Shown: one piece after another, positions 6,607 through 58,500 of the stretch | How positions within the stretch are numbered: the first letter of the stretch is position 1 | Layout of the letters: every line of letters begins with the position of its first letter | DNA from: Microbotryomycetes sp. JL201 | Lineage: Eukaryota > Basidiomycota > Microbotryomycetes | DNA: 64,000 nucleotides | NCBI GenBank assembly: GCA_033819885.1 | Contig: JAQYUZ010000006.1 | Location: forward strand, 372,001 to 436,000 | Direction: 5' to 3' | Position numbers and translations under genes: made by a program | Notes under the pieces: generated by a model | The model's input: the letters and a program-made list of their open reading frames with translations, nothing else | Database searches by the model: none | Told to the model about the DNA's origin: nothing

Positions 6607-7697
6607 TCACCTCAGCACATACGACATGACCTGGAACAACTCTGCAACCGAGCCATCAGTGAAACAGTTCGCGACGGATTTGCGCCACCTACTCACCTTT
6701 CGGGAAACCCATTTGCAATTCCCTCCTTACCAGAGACAGGCCCGCTTGCTCAAATATCCTTTTGAACACTTTATCAGATCTGCGCGAAAAGTGAGCAAGA
6801 GCTACCGGTGGAAAGCGTGAGCGAAACTTGCCTCGTGACCGAACTGTCGTCGTCATCGAAAATGATGCCTGCTCCGTTGGATTCTTCGTCCTTACAAATA
6901 TTCTCCTTCAATATGATGTACCCCTGACACTCGTCTTGATCCTGCCTGAGCGCTCTTCGACTCCGCTTAAGAAAATCGACTAGCTGTTCGTCGGACAAAT
7001 GACCAATGCACCATTGAATCATGATGAGGTCGTACCCGTCCTCTCCGACATTGAGGGCTGTGGCCGGATCCGGCCACGCAAGCGAGGTCGAACCAACAGC
7101 CGCAAACAATTGACTTTTGCCACCAGCAACAGGCAAGGCAGGCTGCAGAGGATCAAAGTACTGCAGACCAGCGAGCCACAGCCTGGCCGACTTGTCGCCT
7201 TGCTTGACACCTTTCCATCCGTCCGATCCTATTTCGGCATTGAGCTTTGCCTGTTGCAAGAATTTTGACACTGGCTCGACCAAGTCGACTTGGTCAAAGA
7301 GTGGCAGCAAAACTGTGGCAGATACGCGCCCGATGCCTGCACCGCAGTCGAGCGCTTTGTACTTGCGCTGTCGCGTTCTGAGAGTGTCGGTCGAGCCCTT
7401 GTGTGGCGGCGTGACGGTAGAAAGTTCAGGCAAGACTGAGAGGATGAGCAAGCGCGACGATGTAGCGTCCAAGCGGGGCACAGGCGTGCCACTGATGTCG
7501 ATTGACAAATTGAAACATATCGAGTGCGTCAGCTATTGCAATGTCGCGCGTGTTTGGCCGGCAGGCGAAAGAAGGACGAGGATCGCTCACTGGCCGTAAC
7601 CGCCGAGCACGCCGTCAACGCTCGCTGCAGTGTTTGTCCAATATTCGACGCCAGCCTCGAAATCGGGCAGTTTACTGCTCGAACCAGCGGGAGCCAT
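6607..7697 (-). CDS. Alpha-N-terminal protein methyltransferase (NTMT1/Tae1 type)
   Basis: SAM-dependent enzyme that methylates the exposed alpha-amino group of proteins after Met removal (X-Pro-Lys type; ribosomal proteins in yeast). Exons: 7591-7697, 6832-7491, 6697-6779, 6607-6641; 294 residues. Family landmarks are VEYWTNTAASVDGVLGGYG at the N terminus, motif I LDCGAGIGRVS, IMIQWCIGHL, ILKENIC, DSSVTRSD, FKRIFEQAGL and the terminal GFPKELFQVMSYVLR. The last two exons are missed if the large ORF is read through to its stop. The second intron (6780-6831) is GC-AG with donor AG|GCAAGT; only this splice restores the conserved C-terminal third. The start codon is 70 bp from that of the divergent Mic12 gene, so they must share promoter DNA. 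Confidence 0.93.
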
Positions 7698-7767
7698 TGC
7701 GGTCAGTGCTCAAAGGGAAACCACGTGACCTGCTCTCTCTTCTCTACTCACTCGGCTCGGCGCCTCC
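7698..7767. promoter_or_regulatory. 70-bp bidirectional promoter, methyltransferase / Mic12
   Basis: Only 70 bp separate the two divergent start codons, so both 5' UTRs and both core promoters must fit here or inside the genes. It contains the motif CCACGTGACC, with a palindromic CACGTG E-box at its centre. Confidence 0.5.
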
Positions 7768-8311: not shown

Positions 8312-8446
8312 TACGCCATTGCAATCTGAACACACGCACGCAGTCAATTCATAAGGAGAAACAAAGACGTGAATGATTTGAATAGCTTTGACCAGCAACA
8401 CTACCAAATCGTCTACTCCGGTCGCTCACACCAGTGACGCCAACCT

Positions 8447-11400: not shown

Positions 11401-13134
11401 GCTGTCAGAATCGTCCGGATGATAGCTTGAACCAGTTGAACGAGGAGACTCGGGCACGATGTGCTCTTCGTCAATGTTGTCGTCCCTGAGCGTTTCAGAA
11501 GCTTGCGCGTCGTTGTGGTCGAATGCCGACGCACGTCGCCGCTCTCCCAACGAGCCGTAGCTCAGATCGAAAGGACCATCGTGGTCAGATGTAGAAAGCT
11601 CTGCGTCGCTGCGGGATCCTCCCGTGACAAAGCTCGCCGCGGCAGGGGATTCAGGTGCAGCGGACGATGACGGGCTTGGAGCCATGCGGCTAGGAGTGAG
11701 CCCCTGAGCCGAGCCAAATTGGCGAGAGCGCGAGGTCAAAGTCGGTGAGAGAGGCGATTTGTCGTACGTCGGCCTCGGTGGGCGTTTCGGTGATTCGTTC
11801 TTGAAGGCACCGGGCAACGTCGCCGTTTCTGTTAACGGCGCCTTTGGCGAATCTTGCGACGGCGACCAACGAGGTTTTGGCGGAGACAGCGGCACAGCAC
11901 TTGTCCGGATTTTCCCTGTCAGATCGGGGCTCGGCGGCAGGTCGCTCGGCGCCTGACGCGAGGATTTGACAGCGATCAGAGGCGAATTGTCTGGCTTCGT
12001 CGGCGTGGGCACATCCTTGTCGTCACCATCGAATTCGAGATGCAGCTGCTTTTCGATCTCATCCAACGCGCGAGATATTCGCCTTTCTTGCTTGGTGCCA
12101 AGTCCTTTCCGAGAGATCTGGTCTGCCGATACCGGTGCCGGTGAAGTGGTTGCGCCTGCGTTCGTCTTTGACCTCGTCAAACTCTTTTTGCTAGAACCTG
12201 ATCGTTTGCTCGCGGTCGAGTGAAGACTGCCGGACGACTTGCTCCTTTGAAGCTCCGTTTTGGTCGCCACTCGGCCGCCAAACATGGCGTTGCCGCTGCT
12301 GCCTCCGCGCACGAGCGGCGAAGAGGGTGGAATTGACCATCCAGACGTGCTCATCATTGGTGAGTGGAAAGAAGCGGACGAAGACGATGCCATGCTCGGC
12401 GAGCGTCCGGCTTCGATGATGGATGAGACGTTTGACCGGTCACCTGCGCCAGTCGAATTTGTCGCTGACAAGAATGGAGAAGCTAGCAGCGTCTCTGTTG
12501 TCGGCAAAGTCGCGGTCTGAACAGGTTGTTGAGAGGGTGACGCGGATGAACGGACGCCACTCCCGGCGTCGTGATCATTGTCGAGCTGACGCCAGTCGTG
12601 GCGAAATGGTTTCGCTTTAGAAATGGGATTTTTATGACGATCGACCATGTCTAATTGCTCCAGCACGTTCTCGGCTTCTCGGTCTGTGAGCGAGCCTGCC
12701 TGGCGGTGAATCCTGAGGACATGATTCTGGCCCTGTCAGCTGTCGAGCCCCAACGAGAAACATAGTGTGGAAGGTAAACTTGCTCAATCTGCTCTTGCAA
12801 CGCGTCGTAGCTGATCGCCTGTCCATCGCTGTCTTTGAGCAGCGAGAAGCGCTGCGTCAACTCGGGCTGAGCAGACCCCGCGCCACCAGACAGTCCCGTC
12901 AGCGCACTTGTCCAGTCAGCTAGGAGCCGTCCGAAGTGTACTGACGAGGATCAAGCTCGTCCTGAACGTGTCCATGTCCGGCAAGTCTGGAATGGCCGGC
13001 GCAGGTCGTTCAGCCTCCCGCCCGTTTGGTCGTCCAGCGCCACTGTCGCCGTTGACAGGCGGCGGCGGCTTTCTTTTTGGCGAATGAGCCGTCTTGACGT
13101 CGCCGCTCGTCGACTTGCGACGGAATCGGTTCAT
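8447..13134 (-). CDS. Conserved fungal protein of unknown function, mostly disordered
   Basis: I do not recognise a named function. Exons: 12946-13134, 12784-12866, 10821-12712, 8447-10767; 1494 residues. Only the first 120 residues look folded. They include MDTFRTSLIL joined to PELTQRFSLLK, then a helical stretch (SLTDREAENVLEQL). This N-terminal module resembles one found in uncharacterised filamentous-ascomycete proteins. The rest is Ser/Pro/Arg-rich low-complexity sequence with many basic phospho-site contexts and one predicted helix (LREAAEELGLPRDKVEEL) at roughly plus-strand 9400. Intron 1 uses donor GTCAGT; intron 2 (12713-12783) is best read as GC-AG (GA|GCAAGT), because only that keeps frame and places a CTGAC branch site about 25 nt upstream. 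An in-frame ATG at 13176 is an alternative start. Confidence 0.8.
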
Positions 13135-23443: not shown

Positions 23444-24292
23444 CTACACAAGCTGCTTCGGAGAGTCACTGAAATTGGGATCAACCCAAACACCCTGCGC
23501 ATGCCCCACTCGTTGTCAGTCGATGTCTGGGTCAGGCGCTCGAGCCCCTCTGCAGACTGACCAAGTGCTTGTCCTTGTCGTCGTCAGATTCTACGTTCGC
23601 TGGCAATGGTATCCGGCTGATGCTCGGGGTGTTGACATGCTGTGCCAGTGCTTCGACAACCTGGTTCGCGTTACGCAACTCAGCATGTGCATAAGCGAGG
23701 TGTGGCTAACCGAGGATTCTTACGTCGTAGTCGACGCCGTACTCTTTGCAAAGCTCTTTGATTGCCTGAGGCGACTTCTTTGCCTTACGCTCGTCGAGCA
23801 AATTGGCGAGCAAGCCGGCGCTCATGTGTATCGTTGAAGGAGTGACTGCCTCGGCGAGCTCATCCTCAGTCTTCCGTCGCCGCTGGAGAATGTTGACCAT
23901 TTCGTTGTCCTGAGGTAGAGGACACTCAGCCGAAGGCAGCGTTGCAGCAAGCTGTGGCTTTTACTAACCTTTTTGGGTGCAAACTGAGAGCGTGGTACTT
24001 GCACTTGGCCGAGCTTGTTCAAGTTGGCCATGAAACTTGGGTCGTGACCGTCACGCTCTATGTCTGCCGAGAGGAGAGGGACCCCGAGTCAGGCAGGATC
24101 CTTGCAAGGGTTACATAGTACGCGCGCGTGCTTGCCTCTGTTCTTTGTGTCGCTGACGTCGTGACGTCGTTGAGCGGGCGCTGGCATCGCTGGAGCAGAC
24201 TGGCGTGCTGCTGCCGTCGCCGCTGCCGAGCTTACTTTGTTTGCTGCCGTTTTCGTGGCTTGCGCCGCCGTTTTCGATGCCGAGTTGCCCAT
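23444..24292 (-). CDS. Small conserved protein, N-myristoylation-like start; NDUFAF4-like layout
   Basis: Not confidently named. Exons: 24136-24292, 23969-24063, 23724-23909, 23562-23660, 23444-23494; 195 residues, all phases closing. It begins MGNSASK, a good N-myristoylation context (Gly2, Ser6), then an Ala/Lys-rich stretch. The body has FMANLNKLGQVQVPRSQF, SAGLLANLLDERKAKKSP, ELCKEYGVDYDVVEALAQHV and NTPSI, ending GVWVDPNFSDSPKQLV. The helix pair before NTPSI recalls the C-terminal part of complex I assembly factor NDUFAF4, which also starts with an N-myristoylated Gly; this is a tentative inference. Intron 1 is GC-AG (AG|GCAAGC) and the last intron uses GTCAGT. The start codon is 87 bp from the proposed start of ORC3. 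Confidence 0.72.
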
Positions 24293-24379: not shown

Positions 24380-27293
24380 ATGAACGGGCATGCACCACTT
24401 GATGAAGCACCTTTCGCATCGTCGAGCAGAGTGCGTCTCAGCATCAATGCATCACGTGCATTCGGCCGACGCGTCTCGACGCGCGGCGCTCGCTGACGGG
24501 CCCTGCGCTTGCTCGACAGGCAGTCTACACGCTCAAGTACAGCCCAGCCGCAGCTCAAGCACAACAGGACGAGGATCGGTTCAGCAAAGGTCAGCACATC
24601 TCGGCCCCCGCAGCTTGGCATGGCACAGTCTACTCAGCCCCCAACTTCTGCTGCAGATGAACTTTGGCACGAGCTGTACACGCAGGCTTGGCAATCTGCA
24701 AACGAACGCATCAGTGTAAGCAAACCGACGAATCACTCTCCTGCGATCAAGCTGACAACTCGGCCATCGCCACAGGCCACCTTGAACAATCTACACGACG
24801 CGGCTCTCGATGAGATTGTCGACTTTGTGCACGCATCAGACCACACCTCTTCGTCTTTACTATCAGCGCTCAGAGGCCGCGTCTTGTTGCCTACCGGTCT
24901 CGTCGTCGGTATGTCTGCACAGCCACGCTCGGTTCCATTTGCTTGACACGCTCTGCTCTAGGCGCGAGTCCAAGCTCGGCCAGCCTGCTCTTCACCGCAT
25001 TGTGTCGTCAATTGTCTGGTGCTCTCTCGGTGCCGATCTCAAAGCGCGCCGGCAAGCAGCCCGAGGCCCCCACCTGCTTGGTCTCGCGATTGTCTTCTCG
25101 CCACTGTCCTAACATCAAGACCGCCCTGCGTATGCTCAACGCAGGATTCATCAACCGGTCGACCCTGGAAGCATTTGATGACGACGATTCGTCCAATGTA
25201 GAGTCCCTTTTTGCGTTGTCAGAGAGTGTGCGTTGACATCGTTCATCGTGGCAGATCGCTGCATCTGCACTCAAGTCGGCCACCCTGCCAGCGGAAGACT
25301 TGGAAAACCTGCTCGCATGGTATACGTACCGATTCAGGAGCAATGGTGAGCTTGTCGCTCTTGACAAGCTCTTTGGCCCTGCTAAACCCGCTCAACAGCG
25401 TCCGCAGGCTCAAAATCAGCAGGGCCACGGTTGGTCGTTTTGCTTGAGGATTTGGAGGGAATGCAAGGGCATGTACTCAGCGCCCTCGTTGAAGCACTCG
25501 CGTGAGTCATGGCACAAGCCTCTCGTCTTGCGGTCGCGCGCTAAGTCGTCTGCTACTGCTCAGCGCATACGCTGGCAAACTGCCCCTTGCCTTCCTCATC
25601 GGCGTAGCCACATCCGCAGACGCCATCAATCAAGTCGTCTGGCGCGGAATCACGAGCTTGATGAACATCTCGACGTTCTTTGTCGAACCCGGCATAGCAG
25701 CGTTCAACGCTGTCATGCGAGATGTATGTTCGTTCTGACCGAGCGGCGGCGATTGTGCTGACGTGATCCTCAATGCGAAGCTATTTATCGAGTCCTACCT
25801 ACCGCTTTCTGTAGATGCGAGAACGTTTCACGGTCTCTTGCAGGATTTTCAGGTGGCCCATCTCTCAGTAGATGCTACGATATCAGCCGTACAGGTCAGT
25901 CTTTATGCCGATAGGAAGCTATAAGTCTGAAATTTGTGCTCTCAGTACCTATACATGTTTCACTATGCGAGTCAGCTTGTCGCGACTGTCACCCCCGAAA
26001 CGGCACTCGATCGACTAGATGACGAAATGGCAGACTCGCTCCTAAAATTGAATTCCGTTGCATCTCTCGCCCGAGACGAAGAGATTGTGATTCATCTCGA
26101 GAACAAGAGCCTCAGCAATTTGCATTCCGCCATGTCAATCGCTTACGAAGCTCGTCAAGCTTGGCATCGGAAACGACGTGTCGGCTTTACAGTCTTGGTG
26201 GCATTACAACGGTTCTGGGACAAAGAACAACCTCTGGAGAAGATGTTGATGTCGTTGCACGACGGCACGGCAATCAAGCATGTCGAGGAAGTCTGCAAGA
26301 TGACGCTGTGAGCTCTGATGCGTTTAGCCTGCCAAATGTCTTGCTCACAATACGCCGGATCGTCTACAGACAAGCGGCCTCAACTAAATTGCCGATGCTT
26401 GTAGCAGAGGTGATACAGGAGCTGGAGGGACTAGCAGCGCAAAAGGCGATCGACGATGACGACGACATGACAAAGCTTTTTGGAGATGCTGCAGAACAGC
26501 TCGAACGCATTGCCTCCATGCGAAAACCTTCGCAACGACAAAATCTGATCAACCGTAATGTTGTCGGACATGACATGATAACCGCTGGCCTCAAACTAGA
26601 CACCGTCGACGTTGAATTCAGCGACCTCGTCAAGCGGTTCGCAAGCGAACTCGGACAGAATCTAAAGCGAGTCCATCCCTGAAAATTTCCAGGGGCGTGA
26701 GCTGACTAGCAAGCATGCTATCCAGGTCCTCGTTCAGGCTGGCGACGAGCTTGCCCATGCACGAGTGCTGGCTGATTCAAGACGCAAATCTGGTTCAAAA
26801 AGTGAATCGAAAAGCGCTTGAACGATTGCATGCGTCATTCCGAAAAAGGGACTGAAAAATTTTCGTTTGCTTTGCACAGTCATTCCACCCTGCCCTGCTT
26901 ACAAACGTCCAATCGTCGTTATCATCTCTCATTCCGTCTGCTTCCCGTTCTTCCAAAAGCGAAGCTGCCCTACTTGATCCCGCTTTGGACGTGGTCATCG
27001 CTTACAAGATGTATTGCGAGACGGGTAGAACCGTCAATTTGGCAGATTGGTACACGGCGTGGGAAGGTTCGGTCTGGGACGAAATGTCGACGAAGAAACG
27101 AAAAAGGAAAGTCGACGGCAAGGACAATCAAGACTTGGCGAATGCAGCCGATGAAAACCAAGAATATGATTCTGCCGCCGTAAGACAACGCAAGCAAGCC
27201 CGCTTCATCAGGGCGATTGGCGATCTTGGATTTCTCGGATTCCTGCAGCCGACAGCGCGAAAGGCCGAGCACGTTACCAAAACCGTCTTCTGA
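24380..27293 (+). CDS. ORC3: Origin recognition complex subunit 3
   Basis: ORC3 scaffolds the DNA-bound origin recognition complex that loads MCM helicase. Exons: 24380-24430, 24520-24589, 24657-24715, 24776-24908, 24962-25197, 25255-25345, 25399-25501, 25564-25723, 25781-25894, 25946-26307, 26370-26666, 26726-about 26831, 26880-27293; about 731 residues. ORC3 landmarks in order: ELWHELYTQAW, the LPTGLVVGASPSSASLLF strand-loop, CLVSRLSSRHCPNIKTAL, LVVLLEDLEGM, LAFLIGVATSADAINQV, YLYMFHYASQL and the winged-helix end YKMYCETGRTVNLADWYTAW. Intron 11 (26667-26725) reads best as GC-AG (AA|GCGAGT). The junction after 26831 is unresolved (see findings). The first two exons are inferred from phase and motif; a start at 24620 is the alternative. 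Confidence 0.88.
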
Positions 27294-29074: not shown

Positions 29075-30733
29075 ATGGCGCTCGATTCGGCCGTCATGTG
29101 GACCAATCTCATCCAGTGGTTGGAGCAGCATGGTTGCAAAGATCCGGACAAATACATCAAGCTCGTCGAGACCTCAGGCAAGTCGCGTTTCAGCAGACTC
29201 GAGCACGGACTTTGACAGACATTTGTGATACCTTCCTGCAGCCGGCCGAGGTCTCGTCGCAAAAGGAGCGATTAAAGTGCGCATTGAGATGTCGAGGTGC
29301 AGCTCTTCCCGAAATTCTTGGCTAAGTCGTAATCAAACCCCGCAGCCGGCCACAAAGCTCATCTCAATTCCGAGTTCGGCGTTGCTCAACGTCAAGTCAC
29401 TGGGGTCGCTGTACCCGTCCAATTTCGAGAAACTTCTCAACTCTTATCAATGGGTGTCGCTACACATTGCACTGCAGTACGCGAGGAACAGGCAGAGACG
29501 GGTAACTTCGCCACGTGACCGGTTCAAACCTTTTATCGCTTCAATCCCGCAAGACTTTCCCACGTTACCCCTGACGTGGTCACTCGGGTCAAGAACGAAG
29601 CAGGAACTGATATGGAATTTCGACCTGGACGCCCAAGACGAGACTTTGTCGTCGCACAATGAGGGCCAGCGTCGCTTGTTTGCAGACTTGCTGTCTTGCA
29701 TGCCTCCTGCTGTCAAAAACAGGGCAGCTTCGGTAGAGAAAAGATTTCGTCAGGATTGGAAGCGAACACGGCAGGTCTGGGCCGAGCTTCGCGCAAGTAA
29801 CTCGGAAGAAACGGACGAGCTATGTTTCTTCGACTTTGCTCTGGCATGGAAGAACGGTGCGTACACGAATATGGCTGTGTCGTGATCATTCGTACTGATT
29901 TGGATGCGCTAGTCAACACCCGTTGTGTGTATTTTGACCTCGGTTTGAGCAAGGACGATAATTTCACGCTTGCGCCGGTCATAGACATGATCAATCACGC
30001 CGACAGACGCGAGGCGAGTCGAGACCACCTCGTGCTTCAATCCTCCACAGCTGACAGAAGACACAAGACTAAACCTCTTCAGAGCATGTCGAAAGGTCTC
30101 GAGTTCTCCAGTCCGTCAACGCGCTCGATAGACCCGCCGCTGCGCGACGGCGAGGAATTGAGCTTTTCGTACGGAGCACACGAAGACGCGATGCTGCTGA
30201 CAGAATACGGCTTTACTCTCGGTGCCGGTAACCCGTTCAACAATCTCGATTGCACTCCCGTTGTTGAGCAATTGTTCAATGAGCAAGGCGAGGAAGGTGC
30301 GCTCAAGCGTGGCGTGCTGCAAGACGCCGGATACTGGGGCGAGATGACAATGCAGGGATCGGAACACGACGCTTCGGCGAGCTGGCGAGTACTTATCGCG
30401 TTGAGGCTGCTACACTTGCGAATATCCACTTCCGGAGCAAGTCTGACGGCGTCGACAATCGAGCCGTTCTACGCTGTCGTGGCCGGCGATGCAGACATCA
30501 TCTCTGACAGCAACGAGAAACAGGTCAAGGCTAGCTTAAGGACTATCTGCCAGGTCATCAAGCTGCAAGCGGACGAGGCTCTGCCACGATGTGACCGACT
30601 GTTGACCAAGTGGACGGCCAACAAGGACGAAAGCGTTTCGGCAGACTTTGTGCAGAGCTTGAGCATGCTCAAAGGTGTTTGGCAGGAGGATTTACGGATA
30701 GCTAGAGCTGTGTTGGTCAACCTTGAGCCTTGA
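29075..30733 (+). CDS. SET-domain protein lysine methyltransferase (RKM/SETD type)
   Basis: Non-histone lysine methyltransferase of the split-SET class (Rkm1/Rkm4, SETD3/SETD4-like), which usually modifies ribosomal proteins or actin-like substrates. Exons: 29075-29177, 29242-29276, 29346-29856, 29913-30733; 489 residues. Landmarks: AGRGLVAKGAIK (N-SET GRG), LISIPSSALLNV, an inserted i-SET helical region, FTLAPVIDMINHAD (SET NH motif), ELSFSYGAHEDAMLLTEYGF (catalytic Tyr region), then a C-terminal Rubisco-LSMT-like helical domain. Intron 1 (29178-29241) is GC-AG with donor AG|GCAAGT; without it the GRG motif is lost. Substrate cannot be read from sequence. Confidence 0.9.
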
Positions 30734-33422: not shown

Positions 33423-35424
33423 TCAATTGATCCATTTGAGCGTTTCACCGTTCTCGACTCTACACCGCCTAGCCAAAACTTCTTTGACCTTGACTTGGGC
33501 GCCAACCTTGCCGTTCCATCTCTTTACGATTTGCTTGACGACTTCCTTTTCTGTCAATGCGTACTTTCCACTTCCTTTCGCTTCACCCGTCACCACGTCC
33601 TTGATGTCTTTTTCAGTTGGCAAAGAGTAGATCGCGTGAGGGTAATCCTTGTAAGCTCGTACGCCCGCCGGTCGCTTATGTACAAACGCTAGCTTTTTTA
33701 GAGGGGGATTCGTGAACGGCGGAGGGTTCGAAAAGAACGTCTTCGTAATGTATCCATCAGATACTTCCTCCAGCGTTGACGGTGACCAAGCCGGACGACT
33801 GTCTCGCTTCTTTTGAATCAGGTTGTGCGTGACGCCCGTTCTAAAGTCTGGCGCAGCTTCGGGATTCTGTTCAAAAGCAAACGCGCGCGCAAGCACACGC
33901 ACACGAGAGTGTGTGTCAGATGAAGGTCCGTCAAAGTGGAGAGCAACAAGACCAACTTACACAGCAGGCAGTGGCGATTCGGTGATCCATCATGAACACC
34001 TCGTCAATATCGAGCTTCCTTCCTTCCCGGATCGCCTTGATCGTCAACTTGATGCTCGTCGGACTGCGATGCTCAAACACCTTCAATGTGTCGCTAGCCC
34101 ACTTTTGCAACTGTGACACGTCCGTCGTTTCGCCTTCCCTGACGATCTTGGACATGTCGAGAGAACCATCTTGGAGAGCCTTCAGATCTGCAACCATCTC
34201 TTCTGCCGTCTTTTTGCCGAAGATAAAGTCGATCGCCCGCCTTTTTGCACCGACGAGGTCGTATGCGGGCTCGGCAGTTGCTAGTTCCTGTTCGTCGGCG
34301 ACAAACTCTTCAATGGCAGCGTTGACAACGTCTTTGGAAGCTCCCTGCTCCAATTCTGACAAGCGAGCTTCAAGCGCGCCGAGTCGTTCCGAAGGCACAT
34401 AGTGGCTCGCGAACCCAGCAAACAACGCCGCTTTGCCTTTGAGATTCTGTCCGGTGACGCCAAGGTATTCGCCTAGGTGACCGTCCAATCGACCGAGGAA
34501 AAAGTTGGCTCCGACGTCGGGAAACAAGCCAATGTTGGTCTAGACATCCCTGCCGTCAGTGGCTGATTCAAGTCTGCGGTGATGGCTGTCCGGTTCACTG
34601 ACCTCGGGCATGCCCAGCAGGGTACGTTCGGTAGCAATGCGGAAGGGAGCATGCATTGAGAGGCCAACGCCTCCACCAACTGTGTGTCACAAGTTAAATC
34701 GTGCGGCCATTTCCAACCCAAAAGGTTCCTGACGCACGCGTAATGCCGTGCATGACCGAGATGACGGGCGTCTTCATGTTTGCAATGAATCCGTCTGTAA
34801 CGTATTCCTTTGCGAAAAAGTCTGCCGACTTGTGCCAAGTCTTTTCGTCGTTCAGCTGGTTGACGAGGGCTGCGAAAGCAGAGGCGAGAATGAGCATTCT
34901 CTGTCAAAGTCAAGTCGAACGCGAGCGGCAGGGAAAGAATCGAAACTTGCTGACAACGTCTCCTCCTGCGCAGAATGCTTTGTCGCCTGTGCCAGTGAGC
35001 ATGACGACGTTCGCGAGGTCCGACTGTTCGTATTTCTAAGAGCGGCGCCAGTGAGCCCGACGAGGCCAGCCAAGCCGAGTGCTAGCTGTCTCACTTACCT
35101 CTAATGCGGGTTGGATGGCGTCCACCATCTCGAGGTTGAGCGCGTTGAGTGCTTTCGGGCGGTTGAGCCTGATCTTGCGCAGCGAGTGCACCGCTTCAAA
35201 CACGACGGCGTCCTGTGTCAGCCGAGCACGACCAGATGCATGTGTGTCAGAAGTCATGCACTGCCTGTCGTCGTCGCGCACGGATCTCTCACAGTGGCTG
35301 AAGCGGGCTCTTGGCCACTCGACGTTGCCAAGTGTTGCTGCACCATCCCGAGCCTTTGCGCCGGTCTGGGGGCCATCAGACCAGCACTTTGAACGAGTCT
35401 GCCTGCGCGTGACAACAGCGACAT
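33423..35424 (-). CDS. 3-hydroxyisobutyryl-CoA hydrolase / mitoribosomal mS47-like
   Basis: Crotonase-fold enzyme of valine catabolism; in fungi the orthologue (Ehd3) is also found as mitoribosomal protein mS47. Exons: 35293-35424, 35099-35212, 34955-35035, 34738-34900, 34603-34679, 33961-34539, 33423-33866; 529 residues. The N terminus ([15 protein letters not shown]) is a mitochondrial presequence. Landmarks: [27 protein letters not shown] (oxyanion hole), [32 protein letters not shown] (catalytic Glu), and [14 protein letters not shown]. The C terminus carries a 110-residue basic extension (from about [12 protein letters not shown]) beyond the hydrolase core, which is what a ribosome-bound form would need. 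Exon 5 uses donor GTCAGT. An in-frame ATG at 35538 is an unlikely alternative start. Confidence 0.92.
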
Positions 35425-37703: not shown

Positions 37704-39428
37704 TTACTTCTTCTCGCGTTCGGCTTTTGCCGCCTTCGCTGCTTTTGAAGTGAGCTTTGCATAGCGCAAACCTGCGAGTCACGAGGTCAAACTGGTGCGA
37801 GCGAAACCAAGCCCAATCACGAAAGGGCCTACCACAAGCGTTGCAAAGAGACTTGGGTCCCTCGGGTCCCTGTGTGTCAAAGTCAGCATAGCGATGATGG
37901 ACGGGAACGAGCGCGCAAACTCGCCTTTCGCCACTCGGGCGAGTCGACCGTTCCACAGTCCCTGCATACAAATTCGCCTTCTTCCACTCGCGGTTTCTGG
38001 ACAATAAACCGATCAGTTGATTCTGCGGATGGTACGAGTCGAGCAAGCTCCGCGCTTGCCTTCTTCTTCTTCTCTGATCCCTCCTGCTTTGAGGGGGTAT
38101 TTGTACTGATACCGATACCAAGCGCACCGTACGTATTTGATGATGATGGTAGTAATCCGTTGGCCTGTACCAATCCAGTCACTGGATCGATGACGCTTTC
38201 GCTCCTCTCGCTTAGATTCTTCAGCAAGTCTGTCAGTGAAAAACAGTGCTCAGTTTGTCGAACATCCGCAATCATAGACATGAGGCGTACCATCACCACC
38301 CGAACTTTCAATGTCTTTGTACAGCGTCTGCAACTCTTGCCGTAGCCTCTCATTTTCGAACTTTAGTTCTAGGAATGAGTCGAGCATTGCTTGGTTTTTG
38401 GACGGGTATGGCCTGCCCATGCCAAAAAAGCATTTGCAGCTCTGCTGTCCTGTGACGTCGGTGTAATAAGGGTGTCCAGTCATTTCATAAAGGACATAGC
38501 CATTGTCCTTCGTCCTGAACCGGCAGTACAGTGTCAAGTCTTTGCCGTCCTGCAAGCTTTGTTGAAAGTCGCTCCTGTAGCCTTCGACGTCGTCCTTGTG
38601 CACAAAATCAGAGATTGACCGTCCGACGAGCTCGTCCGGCGTCCATCCGGCCATGTCTTGAATCGACGGCGTGACAAAGATAAAGTCGCCAGACGGTGAC
38701 AAGACGTGCATGAAATCCTGCCGACGATGAAAGACGAGCGTTCGCGTTAGTCAGCACGCCTACGCCCGATCGACCGAGCGTAGTCGGCGCAAGGCCGAGC
38801 GGGTGGCGTACCTGGATCTCGTCAATGATGTGCTGTGACCAGTTTTTACGTTTCGTGAACTCTGAGGTTGTACTGCTGGCCTTGACCGTGTGCGTCGAGG
38901 GCTGTGTGAGTGCCGGTGCAGCGATCGGCATCGGCTCGCCCGCTGTCGCTGGCCTTGGGAGCGCCGCCTGACCCGCCGACTGCCGTCGATGCTGCTGATC
39001 GCCCGACATGTGCGCTTGATGGCTGCCGGCGGCCTGCCCGAGCTGTTGCTGCTGGGCCGAGGCTGCCGTCTGTTGCTGCGCCGCCTGCATGTGCTGCTGG
39101 GCAATCGAGCCGCCCTGCCCGCCAAGCGAGTGGTTCCTCCTGTGCATCAAAGGCGCCGTGTCGGCCATCTGGGCGTCTACACGGCACACGATCACCAGAA
39201 TCCGCGAGTCAGTCGATCCCGGCTGCTGCGGAATCCATTTCACCGGTCCAAAGACTGACCTCGTCGCGATTGCTGCTGGTGCTGCTGAAGCTGCTGCTGC
39301 TGCTGTTCGTGTTGATGGCGTTGCTGATCTTGTGTGTAAGTGACGTACTGTGGGTCGTCGAATTGATCGAGGCTCGAGCCACTGCCGCCTGCCTGGTCGT
39401 AGCTTGCCTGCCAATAATTACTCGACAT
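37704..39428 (-). CDS. White Collar 2-type PAS/GATA photoreceptor partner
   Basis: Blue-light signalling transcription factor that pairs with WC-1. Exons: about 39260-39428, 38812 to about 39165, 38291-38717, 37925-38229, 37833-37869, 37704-37771. An N-terminal Gln-rich region (CAG/CAA runs) is followed by SEFTKRKNWSQHIIDEIQ and a PAS domain (FIFVTPSIQDMAGWTPDEL, GYVLYEMTGHPYY). The GATA zinc finger is split by an intron: CRDCGTVDSPEWRK joins GPEGPKSLCNACG and GLRYAKLTSK, giving CxxC-x18-CxxC. That intron (37870-37924) is GC-AG with donor AG|GCGAGT. The exon 1/2 join is unresolved because two frames compete (see findings). The protein ends in a basic tail. Confidence 0.87.
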
Positions 39429-39784: not shown

Positions 39785-42700
39785 CTAGAAGCAATTAACT
39801 GCAATAAGTCGTCGTCAGCATGTGCAAACACGCAATGCTTGCTGTGGCAAAGTCGACCCAGCTCGGATCGAGACTGACATTTGCTCTTGCGAGCTCGGTT
39901 GGCCTCGTCTAACCTGCGCTCAAGCTCGCGAGCCCGACTCTCTTTGCCAAACTTTTCCTCCTGCAACCTCGTTTCGGCATCGATGCTGCGCGATCATGTC
40001 GCATTCGTCAGCTCGACTTGAACCGACAAAGAAGCAAAGTGCTCAAACGTACACCGAATGCCGAACAGACTCGACCTCGACATGCGCATCTTTCACTTGC
40101 TGTCGTAGCTGTTCGTTTTGGTGCACAAACAAGTCGCGCTCTTTCGCCAACTCGTTCATTTGCGTACGCGCCTTGCGCAAATTGCGCTCAGAGTCGTTCA
40201 GCGCAGACTCTAGCGTGTTAACGAGGTCGATGTTGGCTTGCAAGTCTGATTCGCAGTGCGTCAATTGCTTCGAAAGCCGAGCAATCTGCAGCATTGCAAG
40301 ACCAGCGTCAGAGCCACGTCTTTTCTCCACCAACACCGGTCCAAACTCACCATGGCATCTTGCTCATCGAGCCGCTTCATCAAACGAGACTCGACAGAAA
40401 CAGAATCGGGCCGGCTCGTGTTGAACACGCTGTCGGATCCACCCAGCGACTGCCGATTGATGCTTGACGTGCTCGGGGATCTGACAATGCCGCGCACGGG
40501 CGTGCCGTTGGGTACAGGCGGCAGACTAGTCGGCAGCGGCGGAGGTGGCATGGACGGTGGCGGAGTCGGAGGCGGCGCCTTGCGCTGTAACGATAACCGA
40601 TTCGACTCGCTCGTTGGTGACAGAGCTCGGTCACCATCAAGGCCGATAACGCCCGGATTGAGCGAGTTGATGACCGAGGGTGCAGACCGTTGTGCAGCAG
40701 ACAGCTGCTTTGTCTGAGCTTGAATTGCATCGCGTTCAGACCGGACTTGAACCAACTCGGCTTCCACCTTTGTGAGCGAGCCGCGCAAAGTGGAAATCTC
40801 TTGCGACAAAAGCGCAGACGCCTTGTCATGCTCTGCTTCCAAGCCTTCTCGAAGCTTGACATTCGCTGCTTCGTGTGCCTGCAGACGCGCGCGAGTCAGT
40901 GTAGAACCACATTGAATAACAAAACCAGACTTGCGCGTTTCAGCTCTTCGAGAGCAGTCTGATGCCTTTCTTCTCTGCTTTGCAGCTCTTGATCGTGCTC
41001 CGCGGCCAGTTCCCGCAAAGCGGACTCGTGAGCAGCGCTCAACTCTTGCGTCCGAGCCGCCGACGACTCTTCCGCTGCTCGGAGCGCCGACTCGTGTTCC
41101 GTATGAATTGTCTCAAGCACTTCTTTGTTCTTTTGAGTGAGACTGCTGCGCAAGTCTTCGAGCTCGCTAGCGTGTCGATCTGTCGCCGCCTTCAGCTCGG
41201 ATCCTCGCGTTGCAATGATAGATTCGTGCGCCTCTTTCGCTGCAGCCAGGTCGGCCGAGTGTTCCTGGCGAAGTCGTTCGAGAGATCCCTCGTGCTCTCG
41301 TTCAAGCTGTTGAAGTGCTTGATTGTGTGCATCTCGGGCTGTCGACGACTGATCCTCAAACTCTCTTTTGAGACCCGCCATCGCCGATTCGTGATCCTCC
41401 GTTGTAGACTGAAGAGTCTGCACAGCACTCGAACTCTCCTCTTTGAGCTCCGAAACGGCCTGCTCGTGTTCCTCCCGAAGTTGGGCGAGCACCGCCGCGT
41501 GTTGCTGAGCTTGGCTCTCCATTGCTTGTTCAAGTTCGATTCTAACCTGTGCGAGCTCCTTTTGATGCCTCTCGGCCATTTCTGCCTGTTGCGACCTTGC
41601 GGTCTCATCCTTGTCACGAAGCGCAGCCTTGTGACCGCTCATGAGTGACTCGGTCTCGGCTCGAGCTTTGTCTGCCTCAGTTTTCAAAACGTTGTCGTGC
41701 TCAGATTTGAGTCCGGCGAGCGTCTCTTCGTGTTCAGCCTTGATTCGTATCAACTCGTCTTCGTATTGACTGACGAGGTTTGCCTTGTCATATTCGAGCA
41801 TTTTTTCATTCTCCGCACGAAGCTTTTCGAGGTTGGTGGCATGTTCTTCCCGCAAAGCATTGAGTTCATCGTCGTGTCGAGCCTGTACTGAATCGGCTTC
41901 ATTTTTGTAACGCGAAGCAAGCTCCTCTTTTTGCGACACGAGAACATCCTTGTGCTCGCGTACAGCCTGTTCGTGCTCAAGTCGCAATTTGTCAAGCTCC
42001 GCTTGAGTCTCCTCCTGTTGTGTTGTCGCAGCTCCAAGCTCGTCTCGAAGTTTCTGTTGAGCGGCTTTGTGCTCTTGCAGAAGCGCGTCGATCCGGTCCT
42101 CATGTTCGGCTTGGAGTCGGTCTGTTTCGGCCTTGTGAGCCTGCTCCTTATCTTCAAGTGCTCTCGAGTTTTCGCCCTGCGCGGCCTCGATGTTTCGTGC
42201 ATGCTCTTCCTTGGCGCTCGAAAGCAGAGCTTTGACGACGGCCAGCTCGGCAACATGCGAATCCCTCAGCACCGAGAAAGCCGAGTCGTAGTCGCTTCGG
42301 AGTCCGCGTACAGTCTCATTGTGACCCGCCTTGAGCGTTTCAAGCTCCTGCTGAAGCGCTGCATGCGCGTCCTTTGAAGCTGCGAGCTCAGTCTGCAGGT
42401 GTTCGAGCTCGGCCGCATGCGCTTCTCGGAGCATTCGCAGAGCATTGTCGTGCTCTTCACGCAAGCTGTGTAGGGCAGAGTCATGCTCTGTGATGACGGA
42501 ATCCATTTCGGCTTGCGTTTGAGCATGCGCTTGTTTGGTAGTCGAGAGGTCTGTCCGCAAACTTTCGAGTTCTGTTGAGTGAGTCTCATTCAGAACTTGC
42601 ACAGCTTTATCGTGCTCGTCCTTGACAGCTGCAATCTCGTCTTGAGATTGTTCGTGAGCTTTTCGGGCTGTAGTAAGCTCCGTTCGCAACGCTTCAAGCT

Positions 42701-47516: not shown

Positions 47517-50500
47517 TTACTGCACGCTGGCAACGATGCCCTCGGACTTGACGAGAGCGGCAACCATCTTGGCAACTTCTTTGCGACGTTGCACAACGCT
47601 GTCGCTCTCCTTGAGCACCTCGTCTGCAATAACGACAATTCCATCAGCGGCGAGCACCTCTGTTGAGAAAAAGGACGTACCCATCACGTCAGGCTTGTAC
47701 AGTTCTCCCAGCAATTCCCGCTGCAAGTCATCGCGAGCCTTGAAGACGAGGTTGAGCATGATGGCTGAGAACGGCAAAATTTCATTCAGTATGTCAGCCC
47801 TGATTCCAAACCAAGGGCCAACTGACCTTTCGGAACCATGTCGATCAACGTTCGCTTCGACAAGGAAAAGTACGAGGTGATCAACAGCTTGATAACCTCA
47901 GTCTCCATCTGCTCGCGCTCGGACAAGGTTCCTGATGCTCGCAAGACCGGCGGCGGCTGAAAGGCAGCGGCAATCTTAGCGCCTTCGACATCCGCCAGCA
48001 AAGCATCCGCCTCGCTACTTACCGCATCCATAGCAGCGGCGCCCTTCTTATTCGTGGCGACGAGCGGTTTCTTTCCGCCAGGCCAGAACGAGCCAAAGAA
48101 GCCGTCTTCCTTGCGCAAATCGGCGTCCAGGTCTCGACCGTTGTTGAGTGTGCCAGGAGCGAGTTTTCCGGTCTTGGGATCGTGTGCGGGCGGCGGCGGC
48201 TTGTTGGCTGCCATGCGCTCGGAGACGAGGGCCATGGCTTTGTGGCCGCTGATGAAGTCTGGATGTCCCGTGTTGATATACGTTGCTTCCATGCTTTGCA
48301 AGGAATGCCGTCAATTTCAAGCGCACTACTGGACAATCAGCATGAGACTCACGCCACCAAATCCTGCACGAGCTTGTTCGTTGGAAGCATCGACTTGCGA
48401 TAGAAACCTTGAACCGAGCTAAAGAAGCGATCGCGCAGGGCCGGGTATCGTTTAAAGGTAGTCTATGCGTGACACGAGTATCAAAGGATGCACAAGCGGC
48501 TTTGGCGTCAGCTGTTGCTCACATTTTTGCTCAACAACTGGTTGAGTATCCGCATAAGCTCGTCATACACCAGCTGAGCACACTTGAGAGCCGGCTCTTC
48601 AATGCGTTTGATTTGTTGCTTGATGATGACTTCGAAAGCTTGTGTACCGACAAACAAAGCAGGCGATGAACCCTAAAACGAGGTGTCAGGGCAATCAAAG
48701 GATAGAGCAACTCCTGGCTACTTACAGATGAATTGTACAATATGGTGCGGATGTCAGCATCCTTGACCTGGTCGTACGGGTCCAACGACTTGACGCCGTT
48801 TGCAAATAGCTCGTGGAAGACAAAGCTGATGCGAGCACCTCCAGAGAGCTCGTTCAAGGACAAATCACTGGATGAGCCATCGATAGCCGTGCGGAACTCT
48901 GCGCAGAATTCAGTGATGATCTGAAGAACAACGTTACTCTGCAAACGCAAACATGTCAGAAAATGGTTGAGACAAGCTTGTCCAATGCGGCTCACGTTGT
49001 TGCCCTCTCCTTGAGGGCCCCCGAGTGATGCCAACTCTGTCTCGTACTTGACCAAATTTGCAGAAATCTTTTGCTTGATGTCGGGTAGTGTCGCCTTGAT
49101 GTGATGCATCAAGATCTGCGGTAATTGGCATCATTTTTAGCTTGCGTCCGGCGTGATCTAGCAAATGCTTTCGCAGCGCACAGTATTCAGGCGGCGAGTC
49201 AGATAAGGTGTTCCGCAGTATGAAGCCTTGCTTCGATAGCTCGGGTGATTCTCGAAAAATTCGCGCTCGGCCTCGAGGGCGGCCGCGATAGGCCGCTTCT
49301 GGTCAATGTCCTTTTGACCACGGTTGACGACAGGAACGTAACCAAGTCGAAGCGGGATGATGCGTCCGGCCAAGATGTCGACGACGTCAGTTCCTTGGTC
49401 CCTGAGTCCACGGAACGAGGCTATCAGCGGCTGGGAGGTTTGCGGGCGGACCATCAACACACATCAAATCGACCTTGGTCAACACGCCAATCGTCCTTGT
49501 GCCCTCTGGATCAACCTCGCGAGCAAGTTTGAGACCGTCAGAGTTGGCCAAATCCGTGTTAGCAGCCGTGACTGCGAGGATGATCGAGTTGGGCTTCATG
49601 ATAAACTTCAAAAGCATTTCTCGAATCTGCCTCTCAATGTCGCGAGGCTGGTCACCCACGGGCACCTGAATCGTCCGTTTCGATTAGTGAAATGAGCAGA
49701 TCTGACTGCGAAGCGTCTCTTGCCTTCGTCAGACCCGGCAAATCGATGAGTGTCAACGTCAAGACGTGTGGCGAGAAGATGCGCAGGCCGATGGGCAGAG
49801 GAGAAATACCTGCGTAGAGAGCTTGCGGTCAGACCACATGCCAAAACAGTCACCAACAGCACTGACCGGCATTCTTGCCCGTCTTGAGCTCGGTGTCCGC
49901 AACAATCTCGTCTCGGATCTTGTTGAAGTCGTAGAACTTCTCTCCGGGTTTATGAAGCTGTGCCGATGCGAATCAATGGTCGTTGATTCAAACTCGCTCG
50001 ACACCGCGATGCACTCACGAACTCGCCCCATTCGTCTGGGTTGCTAGCCTTGTCCGAGGTCGGCTTCGAACCTGCTTCTCCTGCGCGTGACATCAGACTC
50101 GTCCGATTCTGTCGGCTGAAAGTGACAGGATGACGTACCATCCTTGCCAGAGCTCGTAGCAGGTCGATGGATTAGTTGAAGCACGAGAGGCCGTCGCGTG
50201 ACGATACCAGCTGTTGACGGCCTCATCAGATTGGCAAAAGGTAGGCAAATACCGTATGATACTCACTTCCTCGAGGCAAGAAGTCGCGGCCGACAATGTT
50301 CTACGGGAGCGAGACGAGACATGGGCGTCAGTGCACGCGCTCGGGTGGCCCAGTCACGAGAATACGTGTGAGGCTTACTTCGAGCACTGACGATTTGCCG
50401 CTGCGTAGTACGACGAAGGAAAGAAAGAATACGGTCTCAGCAGATCTGTATCGAGCTGCGCGCAGTGCACACGACCTGTCACGGCTTCGGCAGGCTCACG

Positions 50501-50766
50501 ATGATTGCGAACCAATGACTGCAGCGAAGCAGGGACGCGTACTGTCAGCTGGCATTGTAATTGGCATGATAAGCCTGCGCAGTCTTGGCTCACCGGCAAT
50601 CTGAGGCAGATCAATCGGGTTCGTCGAGATGGACGCCGCTGCGAACGCGTCTTGCAATTTCTGTGTACCACGAATGCGGACGAGGTTAGCAGATGATGGC
50701 TCGAAAGCATCTGAATGCGGTGCCACTTGCGTTGACGGTGGCGATCAAGCCCTCCATAGCGGCCAT
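47517..50766 (-). CDS. VPS1: Dynamin-related GTPase Vps1
   Basis: Large GTPase for vacuolar sorting, endosomal and peroxisomal fission. Seventeen exons: 50731-50757 (or 50766), 50594-50660, 50500-50518, 50379-50400, 50267-50300, 50139-50210, 50019-50080, 49867-49957, 49724-49809, 49463-49665, 49182-49401, 48996-49115, 48726-48938, 48523-48672, 48353-48462, 47827-48293, 47517-47764; about 736 residues. G1 is GSQSSGKSS, G2 [11 protein letters not shown]3 DLPG, G4 TKVD. The middle domain ([34 protein letters not shown]) and [11 protein letters not shown] match Vps1 rather than Dnm1. The GED is [20 protein letters not shown]. Two introns are GC-AG (donors at 50730 and 49723), two use GTCAGT, and one intron (48939-48995) is stop-free and in frame. 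Exons 3 and 4 are 19 and 22 nt. Confidence 0.95.
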
Positions 50767-53505: not shown

Positions 53506-53741
53506 GGCTAAAGCTGATTGCGGCCCCACAGACGCAACTTCGGTCATGGCAATGCCGAGCAAGCGGAAATCGAGCAGGCTGTAATTTTACAAACTACACT
53601 TTAAGTTGACTACACACTCGTACAGATTTTTCCGGCACTCGTCGCGTTCAAGTATCTCACTGAGTCAGTCCGTACCTGCGGATTCCACATCGTAGACATC
53701 AGCGACACGAAGCAGGACAGCAGCTGCTACAACCCCTAAGC

Positions 53742-54953: not shown

Positions 54954-55593
54954 GTTTGCGATGGTCAGCATGAAGTCGAGAGGGGTGCACCACCTCTGAT
55001 ATTGTGCCAGGTGACATGGCTACTCACTCATGTCTGAGATGTAGGGTCTAGTACGAGAAACCAGTCGCGAGGACGCGTACTCGGGCAGTGCGCTTTCATC
55101 CAGTTAGGAGGTTCCCATGTGCGTCCCTGTCGATGTGTATCCAATTGTAAAATTGCCGAATTAGCTGAAGCATCTACGACTTCGCAAGCACGGTCGCATG
55201 TGACTCGGACTCGTTAGTCACTGACGATGACAAAGCCGTTTTGCGTCGGTGGTTCGGTCGAGTCGCTGTGGCGCTGCGATCTCGTTTGACTGCAGGCTCG
55301 TGTCGACTCTCATCGATCGGCGTTCAAACGACTTTCTCCTCGGATCTTGGAAACATCTCGACACGTTGGGATCGCCAGTTTTTGACGGACAACAAGTAAA
55401 CAACCGTCGTCGGTCTCGCGCGCCCGTCTCCTCGGCTTCGACGTAGCCTCCGTCGCCTGTCCAGGCTTGCCTGCATCTCTGTCGAGAGACCTAGCCGATC
55501 CAAGGAGGTCATTGTCGCCGTTTGTGCGGCCTGCGTGGCTGCATAGCGTCTTTGCGCGAGCGTTCGAGTGGCTCCTAAGGCGAGGCGAGCCCG
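54954..55593. promoter_or_regulatory. Divergent promoter region RPA32 / P4-ATPase, 640 bp
   Basis: Head-to-head interval with no supported exon, RNA gene or repeat. It holds an ACGCGT (MluI cell-cycle box) at 55073-55078 and an adjacent TCGCGA, 115-125 bp upstream of the RPA32 start. Confidence 0.5.
55073..55078. promoter_or_regulatory. ACGCGT MluI cell-cycle box upstream of RPA32
   Basis: Exact MCB hexamer, the site of the MBF (Swi6/Mbp1-type) G1/S activator in fungi; RPA genes are known MBF targets in yeasts. By chance the hexamer is expected several times per window, so position and gene context are the only support. Confidence 0.4.
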
Positions 55594-58500
55594 ATGCCGT
55601 CTTCAACCGAGGTCAAGCCGATACCGCAGCGCGGGGCGACAAGCGGACTAGCTCGTGTATGGGCTCGTGCGACAAGCTTTGACCTGCTCGCGCTGTTTAA
55701 TCCGAAACGCGGCCCGGGCGTGCCGAGGACCGTCTTGGTCAATGTCGACCCGCCGCCGGAAGCGACGACAAACGTGCCAAAGGTGCCGATTCCGGGCTGG
55801 AGCAAGAAGCAGACGCTCGAACTACCTAACGGGCAAATGACTGAGCGCAAGGTGTCACGCGGGTTCGGCGCGAAACACGGTCCAGCGCCAGGCTGGACGC
55901 ACGAGAGCAATCAAGTGCTCACGAGCAAGTACAACATCATCACATTCCTGCCTCGCAATCTCATTGAACAGTTCCGTCGCGTCGCCAACGTCTTCTTCTT
56001 GGGCAAGTTGACCAGTCCGCCGCACAGCTCTGGCGTCATTGCCCTTTTGGGCCACGAGCGGCAGCCAGCAAACAAACAGCGCGCTGACTTTCAAGTTGTC
56101 TCATTCTGCAGCACTCGTTATCCTCCAATTCTTCCCGCGCTTTACGACTGTCAGTCCAGGCTTGTCGGCGTTGCCACTGCTCGTCGTTCTCTTTATCACG
56201 GCCGTCAAAGATGGCTACGAAGATCTCAAGCGACATCAAAGCGACAGAGCCATTAATAATATTAACGTGGGTCATTCGAACTCGTGGACAGGCGCGCGAT
56301 GGACTCACGCGCGCTACATGGCAGGTCTTCGCGCTCAAAGGCAGATTCCACAACCCAAACTTGACGAGATCGAAACAGCGGACTTTTGGCGTGCCAGCGT
56401 TCCTTACCAATCTGTTCATGCGTAACAAGCTCGTCCAAGAGTCGGAAGAAGCCGAGGAGGAGCGACAGGCGCAACGCAAAAAAGGTTTCTGGGGAAAACG
56501 CAAAGTGAAGCGGCCGAAAAACGCTCAGATCAGTTCAGAACCTGCCGAGGTTCCTCGCGACGCTCCTGGTGGAGGTTCAGTGCAAGGCGCGCAGGCGAGC
56601 AAGAACGTGAACGGCAACGGCAATGTCAACGGTCACATGGTCGTTGCGCCCAAGATGCAAGATAGACTGCCCGGAGATCACTTTGACGACGAACCCGACA
56701 AGGAAGGAGAGCACCACGGTGGACTGCACCTTGGTGGCCATCACGCACACCGTGCCGTTTGGGCGAAAGAGTGTTGGGAAGATCTTCGCGTTGGAGATTT
56801 TGTCAGACTGCGTGGCGATGAGAGCGTTCCTGCAGGTGAGATGTTTTGAAGTAGAAACATGCAAACAGCCTGTGCTGACCAGAAGTCCATAGATCTGCTG
56901 ATCGTGTCAACGTCTGAAGAGGAAAATGTCTGCTACGTCGAGACGAAGAATCTTGACGGCGAGACCAATCTCAAATCCCGCCATGCTGTTCCAGAATTGA
57001 CGGACTTGCGCACATCGAGCGATATTGAGCAGAATGCCAAGTTTACAGTTGAAGCTGAAGCACCCTCGGTCAACATGTTCAACTTTGACGCTGCTGTCGT
57101 TTTCCATGACGGCCGGCTCGGCAAGGACGGAAAACCTCTCAGGGCACCCGTCACGCTCAACACGATGTTGCTCCGAGGTACCGTCGTTCGTAACACAGAT
57201 TGGGTCATCGGCCTAGTCGTCATGAGCGGTCGTGACACTAAAATCGTCATGAACTCTGGCGGCACCCCTTCAAAGCGATCCAAAGTCGAACGTCAGATGA
57301 ACCCGATGGTGTTTCTCAATTTGTTCCTGCTTGGCCTGATGTGCGCCATGTGTGCATTGGCAAGTTGCTGTGTTGGTCAGGACGAACCGCTTCCGATATT
57401 CTGACATTCGTATGCAGGGCGACCACTTTTTGCAAGTCGACCAATCAGGCGAAGGCGCGTACTGGCTGTACGGCAACGATACCCGCGGCGACAACCCGAA
57501 CGTGAACGGCATCATCACGTTCGCCAATGCTCTAAGTCAGTTCATTGATGTTGTACATTCTGGGTAGTTGCTGACGAATACTTTCAGTCGCATTTCAAAA
57601 CATTGTGCCCATCTCGCTTTACATTTCGATCGAATTTGTGCGCCTTGTGCAAGCGTTCTTCATCTGGGCAGACGACGAAATTTATTACAAAAACAATGGC
57701 ACCAAGAGACGTACGACGGCACGCAGCTGGAACCTGTCAGACGACCTCGGCCAGATTGAGTACATATTCAGTGACAAGACCGGCACTTTGACGCAAAATG
57801 CCATGGTGTTCCGGCAATGTTCGGTTGCCGGCAAAACCTATATTGGCGACGACGAAATACCTGAAACGACAGTGCTTGACGAAAAGTCTGGCGGCAAGCT
57901 GCAAAGCGTGGCATCGTCTGAAAACGCATCCAAGTTGCCTTCTGGTAGCGAGACTGACGTCGAAAAAGGCGAGACTGGCACTGATGACGGAGACGAGAAG
58001 CGCAAGACGAAATTGGCAGAACAGGTTCTGACGCCTTTCCATGACGCCGAAGTTGACCGTGATCTGGCCGACCGCAACTCGCCTCAGGCAAAGCATCTGT
58101 ACAATTTCTTTTCAAATCTGGCCTTGTGCCACACTGTCTTGGCACAAGACGAAGGCGGTTTGATCGCGTACAAGGCTCAGAGTCCCGACGAGGCCGCGCT
58201 CGTTCAGGCAGCCGCAGACGTCGGCTTTGTTTTCATCGGTCGAGACAAGAATATTCTCAAAATACAAACGCCTCACGACAATGAGACCGTCGAATACGAG
58301 CTGTTGAATGTGCTGGAATTCTCGAGTGCGAGAAAGCGCATGTCTGTCGTCGTCCGGCGGTTGAGCAAGGGCTCGGAACAAGGCAAGCTTGTCTTGCTCA
58401 CGAAGGGCGCCGACAACATTATTTTTGAACGTCTCGGACCTGGCAACGAAGAGGTCAAGAAGGTCACCGATGGGCATTTGGAAGACTTTGCCAACGAGGG

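Follow-up and report, generated by a model that had tools for sequence, protein, structure and literature searches.

Introns with GC-AG ends are a known minor class. Their mean share is 1.009% in 130 fungal genomes (PMC7072748, Table 1; this and the other papers identified here by PMC number are cited from excerpts), and in Fusarium graminearum they make up 0.77% of 2604 introns from 842 manually inspected genes (PMC3577648). The present analysis concerns eleven such introns in a stretch of 64,000 bases (contig JAQYUZ010000006.1, positions 372,001 to 436,000), referred to at its full length as the window. The window has a G+C content of 55.2%, and the genes that it contains, the shortness of its introns and their branch points suggest that the source is probably a fungus, likely a basidiomycete. 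As in F. graminearum, the introns have GC...AG ends and AAGT is common after the GC donor. Unlike the situation in that species, the share in the window is about tenfold higher and AG precedes the donor less consistently, G standing at -1 in 7/11. Such a frequency is unusual at 55% G+C.

GC-AG shares far above 1% have been described in algae. Iwata and Gotoh (PMC3033335) report 39.6% in Aureococcus anophagefferens, 22.2% in Micromonas pusilla and 7.7% in Chlorella, the three most G+C-rich among 61 species, and call the origin of this excess an enigma. The window resembles the first two algae in exceeding 1% by a wide margin. However, their genomes combine 66-70% G+C with 22-40% GC-AG introns, whereas the window combines 55% G+C with about 8%; with its GT introns at 54.8% G+C, it lies outside the high-G+C class (about 66-70% genomic G+C). 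Among basidiomycetes, GC-AG introns account for one of 18 bglA introns in Hamamotoa singularis and one of 21 in Rhodotorula minuta, with none of 16 in Sirobasidium magnum and none of six in Sterigmatomyces elviae (PMC9142197). MYB genes contain five in Ganoderma lucidum, six in G. sinense and none in three other Ganoderma species (PMC7407476), and P450 genes of Xanthophyllomyces contain two (PMC5516332). GC-AG introns recur in the bglA and MYB cases as they do in the window, but within single gene families, and the excerpts of these papers state no share for a whole genome. Among the matches listed for the open-access literature, none describes a fungus in which a GC-AG share close to 8% has been validated, and that literature yielded no paper linking GC-AG introns with Pucciniomycotina or with Rhodosporidium. 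The excerpted text of PMC10581693 (eLife) does not mention GC-AG introns and that of PMC5100859 gives no GC-AG share.

Evidence for the GC-AG introns

The analysis covers this one 64-kb stretch and predicts splicing from the DNA sequence. A purpose-written two-strand gene finder, which combines codon usage, donor, branch and acceptor profiles and intron length under Viterbi decoding and was trained on the window itself, produced 28 gene models with 156 introns when GT and GC donors were allowed. An intron is termed frame-forced if its retention shifts the frame or brings in an in-frame stop. Support, in nats, is the gain of the gene finder for the GC form over its replacement when that donor is blocked.

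All eleven intervals listed in the first-pass annotation of this DNA read GC...AG on the coding strand, and the observation of eleven GC-AG introns is confirmed. Seven donors are GCAAGT, two GCGAGT, one GCAAGC and one GCAAGA, in keeping with the statement that most are of the first two kinds. Their description as otherwise perfect U1 sites holds for the intron side, where RAG (R being A or G) occupies +3 to +5 in all eleven compared with 68/141 GT donors (p=7e-4), but not for the exon side, given the base at -1 noted above. Retention of any of the eleven breaks the reading frame, by an in-frame stop in the case of 24064-24135 and by a frameshift in the others. A YTVAY branch-like motif lies near the 3' end of 11/11 GC introns and 112/141 GT introns, and CTGAY occurs in the branch zone of 7/11 and 81/141, respectively; in the profile after training, GCTGAC is the most frequent form of the branch point. 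Two simple patterns for U12 signals found no [AG]TATCC donor and no CCTTAAC among the 156 introns. The eleven introns fall in nine gene models, on both strands, and their features support the view that they are real U2-type GC-AG introns.

The splice was also claimed to restore a conserved motif in most cases, and seven of the eleven junctions do fit solved relatives or Pfam profiles, one of them weakly. In the NTMT1-like gene, SSVT[R]SDKVF (6780-6831) aligns without gaps to NTMT1 chains 7d8d and 2ex4. Both introns of the Vps1 gene are covered by gapless alignments to chains 6di7/6def: DLPGLTK/VPVGDQP (49666-49723; a slash marks the junction) and TVN/KLQDAF (50661-50730), where the GT alternative would delete VN. 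In the P4-ATPase gene, RVANVFFL[A]LVILQFFP (56003-56111) aligns without gaps to 9dzv, 6lcp and 7drx, and MCAMCAL/GDHFLQV (57360-57417) to 9dzv; the GT alternative to the latter deletes 17 residues. The junction WRK/GPEG (37870-37924) lies within a 33-residue match to the Pfam GATA profile, which covers positions 1-33 of its 36, and the GT alternative there would remove the first half of the finger. The weak case is SETD6-like: VETS[A]GRGLVA (29178-29241) aligns without gaps to SETD6 3qxy, with E=1.6e-4 for the whole match and 0.24 for the stretch. At 26667 the acceptor may be 26737 instead of 26725, both of which keep the frame, and ORC3 similarity, resuming only just past the junction, does not reach the donor side. 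For the introns at 12713, 24064 and 40879 the basis is frame and splice signals only. No Pfam match was found in the 216 residues scanned of the gene containing the first or in the scan of the 221-residue protein containing the second, and none above cut-off in the coiled-coil-like tail containing the third; the gene of the last is presumably kinesin-like.

The first-pass annotation held that these introns can only be placed with a GC donor. An intron is indeed forced by the frame at all eleven sites, but the wording is too strong, since an in-frame GT replacement exists for nine. Blocking the GC donor gives such a replacement in eight cases, and the ninth is 56003-56111, for which a GT donor at 56015 is already preferred; blocking 12713 leads to another GC donor, GCAAGA, and blocking 49666 to a different nearby intron. 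The nine GT alternatives score from -7.7 to +0.3 (for example, -1.5 for GTAACC at 24064-24135), on a scale on which GT donors have a 5th percentile of 0.0 and a median of 2.7 and the eleven GC donors lie between 2.4 and 5.3. Eight of the nine therefore fall short of the 5th percentile, and the remaining one barely exceeds it. Support for the GC form ranges from +1.4 to +8.2 nats in ten cases (26667 with acceptor 26737).

The preference for GC was compared with that for other donors by offering the gene finder one extra dinucleotide at a time, GC and 14 others, under three settings. At a prior of 0.02 the gain is 20.5 nats for GC and at most 2.7 for any of the other 14; at a prior of 0.07 the values are 32.8 and 9.2; with the model retrained with GC allowed, GC gains 48.7 nats and the next dinucleotide 13.4. 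Only GC gives a clear, large gain among the 15 alternative donors. Five of the eleven introns are recovered exactly at a prior of 0.02 and eight at 0.07, with 26667 taking another acceptor in both.

Frequency in the window

The eleven introns represent 8.0% of 137 frame-forced introns (95% confidence interval 4.1-13.9%), which has a probability of P=1.8e-7 under a true share of 1.0% and P=1e-4 under 2%. If only the homology-supported junctions are counted the share is 7/137, or 5.1% (confidence interval 2.1-10.2%), with P=5e-4 under 1% and 0.02 under 2%. The earlier count was about 11 in 136 placed introns, a list that was not reproduced: of the 156 introns placed here, 126 GT and 12 GC introns are frame-forced, the 12 comprising the eleven and a doubtful call at 22112-22168 that is excluded from the denominator of 137. 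The accompanying statement that the share is several-fold above the roughly 1% usual in fungi agrees with the difference between 8.0% in the window and 1.009% on average in fungi. A similar share may hold elsewhere in the genome.

Donor composition and compensation

The GC introns are accompanied by a second unusual donor class. C is found at +3 in 26/141 GT donors across the window, 18 of which are GTCAGT, while GTAAGT is rare (7/141). The donor profile was seeded with 3% C at +3, and the signal at this position therefore came from the data. For three of the GTCAGT introns, alignments without gaps to homologues fix the junction (Table 1); 47765-47826 and 45881-45932 are further examples of donors with C at +3.

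When triplets were added singly to a base of GTA and GTG donors only, GTC gained 155.5 nats, the highest of 62, and GCA followed with 101.3; no other triplet exceeded 68.9, against a median of 32.8. The inflated null values, of up to 68.9 nats, arise, we think, because true GTC introns are missing from this base. With GTC included in the base, GCA is first with 59.3 nats, followed by GTT (37.6), TCA (29.7) and, lower, GCG (20.1).

Both classes show compensation downstream of the C. AGT is present at +4 to +6 in 9/11 GC donors (p=9e-4) and 18/26 GTC donors (p=2e-4) versus 32/111 GTA/GTG donors (combined p=4e-6), and among frame-forced introns in 27/36 GC and GTC donors versus 31/97 GTA/GTG donors (p=1e-5). 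A at +3, which base pairs with U1, is found in 9/11 GC donors and 30/141 GT donors (p=8e-5). Exon-side compensation is weaker: G is at -1 in 20/37 GC and GTC donors versus 36/111 GTA/GTG donors (p=0.03). In the GTA/GTG donors, exon-side and intron-side matches to the consensus are weakly anti-correlated (rho -0.24, p 0.01).

Mechanism and alternative explanations

The eleven introns are probably genuine U2-type GC-AG introns in which the mismatch at +2 is compensated, in an organism with a looser check of +2/+3 than most fungi. They would be removed by the ordinary (major) spliceosome. C at +2 would form one mismatch with the U1 small nuclear RNA (snRNA), which would be tolerated owing to a normal branch point and to near-consensus bases in the remainder of the donor on the intron side (A or G at +3 and AGT at +4 to +6), donor bases +3 to +6 being read by both U1 and U6. 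The organism would accept C at +2 (GC) or at +3 (GTCAGT), mostly when AGT follows, and such a relaxed check may have the GC introns as one of its two outcomes. A change of T to C at +2 could then be near neutral in strong donors, allowing the class to rise to about 8% of introns.

A more specific form of this proposal, which is tentative, is that a weakened U1 check at +2/+3 is combined with a greater dependence on reading of +4 to +6 by the ACAGA box of U6, with the GCAAGT and GTCAGT classes coexisting. The two-class model of 5' splice sites (U5-leaning and U6-leaning; PMC11732430) offers a parallel in the anti-correlation between exon and intron sides and in the reading of +4 onwards by the ACAGA box of U6. 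In that model U6 faces +4, and +3, usually A or G, makes a weak contact with U6 G44; the 26/141 GT donors with C at +3 depart from it. C at +3 could pair in Watson-Crick fashion with U6 G44, which would make GTCAGT a near-ideal partner of U6.

Several results weigh against compensated GC-AG introns under a looser +2/+3 check, or limit its reach. The sample is one 64-kb window. The gene finder alone disfavours 56003-56111 (-2.7 nats) and prefers the GT donor at 56015; this alternative inserts four residues where 9dzv, 6lcp and 7drx align without gaps, and the predicted GC form is settled by homology and not by the gene finder. In the retrained model, 57 false calls came from the 14 control dinucleotides, about four each, and some GC calls without homology could therefore be false; the mean of the other U1 matches is 3.02 in these 57 calls versus 4.29 in 14 GC calls (p=7e-4), and AGT follows at +4 to +6 in 12/57 versus 10/14. 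In the run with the GTA/GTG base, GCG gained 35.7 nats and did not rise above background. The predicted U1 duplexes have mean energies of -2.55 kcal/mol for GC and -2.18 kcal/mol for GTC donors, compared with about -3.6 kcal/mol for GTA and GTG donors. The corresponding medians (GC -4.00, GTC -1.30, GTA -3.25 and GTG -3.60 kcal/mol) indicate that the median GC donor is fully compensated, whereas GTC donors, even with their compensation, remain weaker partners of U1.

Base composition alone, through which a G+C-rich genome would turn GT into GC donors as proposed for high-G+C algae, is an unlikely explanation. The three algae with abundant GC-AG introns do lead their comparison in G+C, and third codon positions in the window have 62% G+C. 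However, the GT introns and the window as a whole have the lower values given above, the correlation is rather weak outside those three algae (PMC3033335), and in fungi genomic and splice-site G+C correlate with r of about 0.24 (PMC7072748). Since the correlation is weak outside extreme genomes, composition alone is unlikely to account for 8% at 55% G+C.

It is improbable that GC and GTC donors are read directly by an altered U1 protein or by a changed U1 snRNA that places G across from +2 or +3. Two adjacent C-tolerant positions would fit such a change, and a U1 variant has been proposed for the GA-AG introns of Eurytemora (PMC7072748), but the algae rich in GC-AG introns have putative U1 5' ends of the ordinary kind (PMC3033335), and the compensation at +3 to +6 points to a true mismatch of C at +2. 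A chance cluster in an ordinary fungus with 1-2% GC-AG introns is about equally improbable: it draws on the seven homology-supported junctions, which taken by themselves give P=0.02 under 2%, but conflicts with the far smaller probabilities for all eleven and with their spread across nine gene models on both strands. Misplaced GT introns, retained stretches or sequence errors are a very improbable source of the eleven, for although nine have in-frame GT alternatives, eight of these donors do not reach the 5th percentile for GT donors and the ninth barely passes it, retention breaks the frame in all eleven, homology opposes the alternatives in Vps1, P4-ATPase, NTMT1 and GATA, and other dinucleotides give no comparable gain.

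Coordinates and neighbouring genes

Table 1. Positions of the GC-AG introns, further GC-AG candidates and homology-anchored GTCAGT introns in the window (a slash separates exon from intron)
Feature	Positions	Strand	Donor	Gene	Support (nats)	Other evidence
GC-AG intron	6780..6831	-	GAG/GCAAGT	NTMT1-like N-terminal methyltransferase	+7.1	frame-forced
GC-AG intron	12713..12783	-	TGA/GCAAGT	model of 1494-residue protein	+4.6	frame-forced; branch CTGAC at -23
GC-AG intron	24064..24135	-	GAG/GCAAGC	model of 221-residue protein	+1.4	in-frame stop if retained
GC-AG intron	26667..26725	+	AAA/GCGAGT	ORC3	+6.4 (26737-acceptor form)	frame-forced
GC-AG intron	29178..29241	+	CAG/GCAAGT	SETD6-like	+8.2	frame-forced
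GC-AG intron	37870..37924	-	AAG/GCGAGT	PAS+GATA (inside GATA finger)		frame-forced
GC-AG intron	40879..40934	-	CGC/GCAAGT	kinesin-like (coiled-coil-like tail)	+4.5	frame-forced; CTGAC at -17
GC-AG intron	49666..49723	-	AAG/GCAAGA	Vps1/dynamin	+1.4	frame-forced
GC-AG intron	50661..50730	-	AAC/GCAAGT	Vps1/dynamin	+3.2	frame-forced
GC-AG intron	56003..56111	+	TGG/GCAAGT	P4-ATPase	-2.7	frame-forced
GC-AG intron	57360..57417	+	TTG/GCAAGT	P4-ATPase	+1.8	frame-forced
Probable further GC-AG intron	30014..30082	+	GAG/GCGAGT	SETD6-like	+3.4	branch GCTGACA
Possible further GC-AG intron	33079..33147	+	AAG/GCGAGT		+0.7	
Possible further GC-AG intron	37997..38059	-	AAG/GCAAGC	PAS+GATA	+2.7	
GTCAGT intron	49810..49866	-	GTCAGT	Vps1		gapless homology anchor
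GTCAGT intron	57536..57587	+	GTCAGT	P4-ATPase		FANAL/IAFQNIVP gapless
GTCAGT intron	34540..34602	-	GTCAGT	3-hydroxyisobutyryl-CoA hydrolase-like		gapless vs 6yw5

The lengths of the three further GC-AG candidates are multiples of three without a stop and the frame therefore cannot decide between splicing and retention. The likeliest of them is 30014-30082, which has good splice signals and retention of which would add 23 residues; the weak SETD6 alignment (stretch E=9.8) has a gap of only three residues at this point, and removal of the intron shortens an insertion relative to SETD6. The GC call at 22112-22168 was rejected, as it lies within a badly split Vps23 gene and has a support of +0.6 nats; the UEV and Vps23 core domains are found there in two adjacent models (20842-23252, minus strand) that are probably one Vps23 gene wrongly split.

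Pfam matches above the curated cut-off were obtained for 12 of the 18 models scanned (18 of the 28 were scanned, seven of them in trimmed form). They include an NTMT1-type methyltransferase, ORC3, GATA, PAS, dynamin and P4-ATPase N-terminal domains, as well as alkaline phosphatase, UEV, Vps23 core, UPF3, Ctr and Dsc3. The gene at 37704-39590 (minus strand), in which Pfam identifies a PAS domain and a GATA finger, is one that we take to resemble the white-collar 2 blue-light regulator. A single model at 52511-55031 (minus strand) unites an OB-fold, presumably RPA2-like, with a GST C-terminal domain and probably represents two genes wrongly fused. A tRNA scan found no tRNA in the window, and an Rfam search, in gathering-score mode only, found no family at the gathering score.

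Implications

If confirmed with RNA, both the share of GC-AG introns and its association with GTCAGT donors would be new. Should the share apply to the whole genome, about one intron in twelve would depart from the GT rule in a fungus whose G+C content is moderate. What sets the tolerance for GC donors could then be tested by comparing U1, U6 and the transfer factors between this organism and relatives that have a share of 1%, with the GTCAGT class, linked to the GC introns, as a second readout of donor tolerance. If the tentative proposal of weakened U1 reading with reliance on U6 is true, the two classes would represent a new fungal donor 'dialect' that stems from a definable change in the U1 small nuclear ribonucleoprotein, U6 or a transfer factor.

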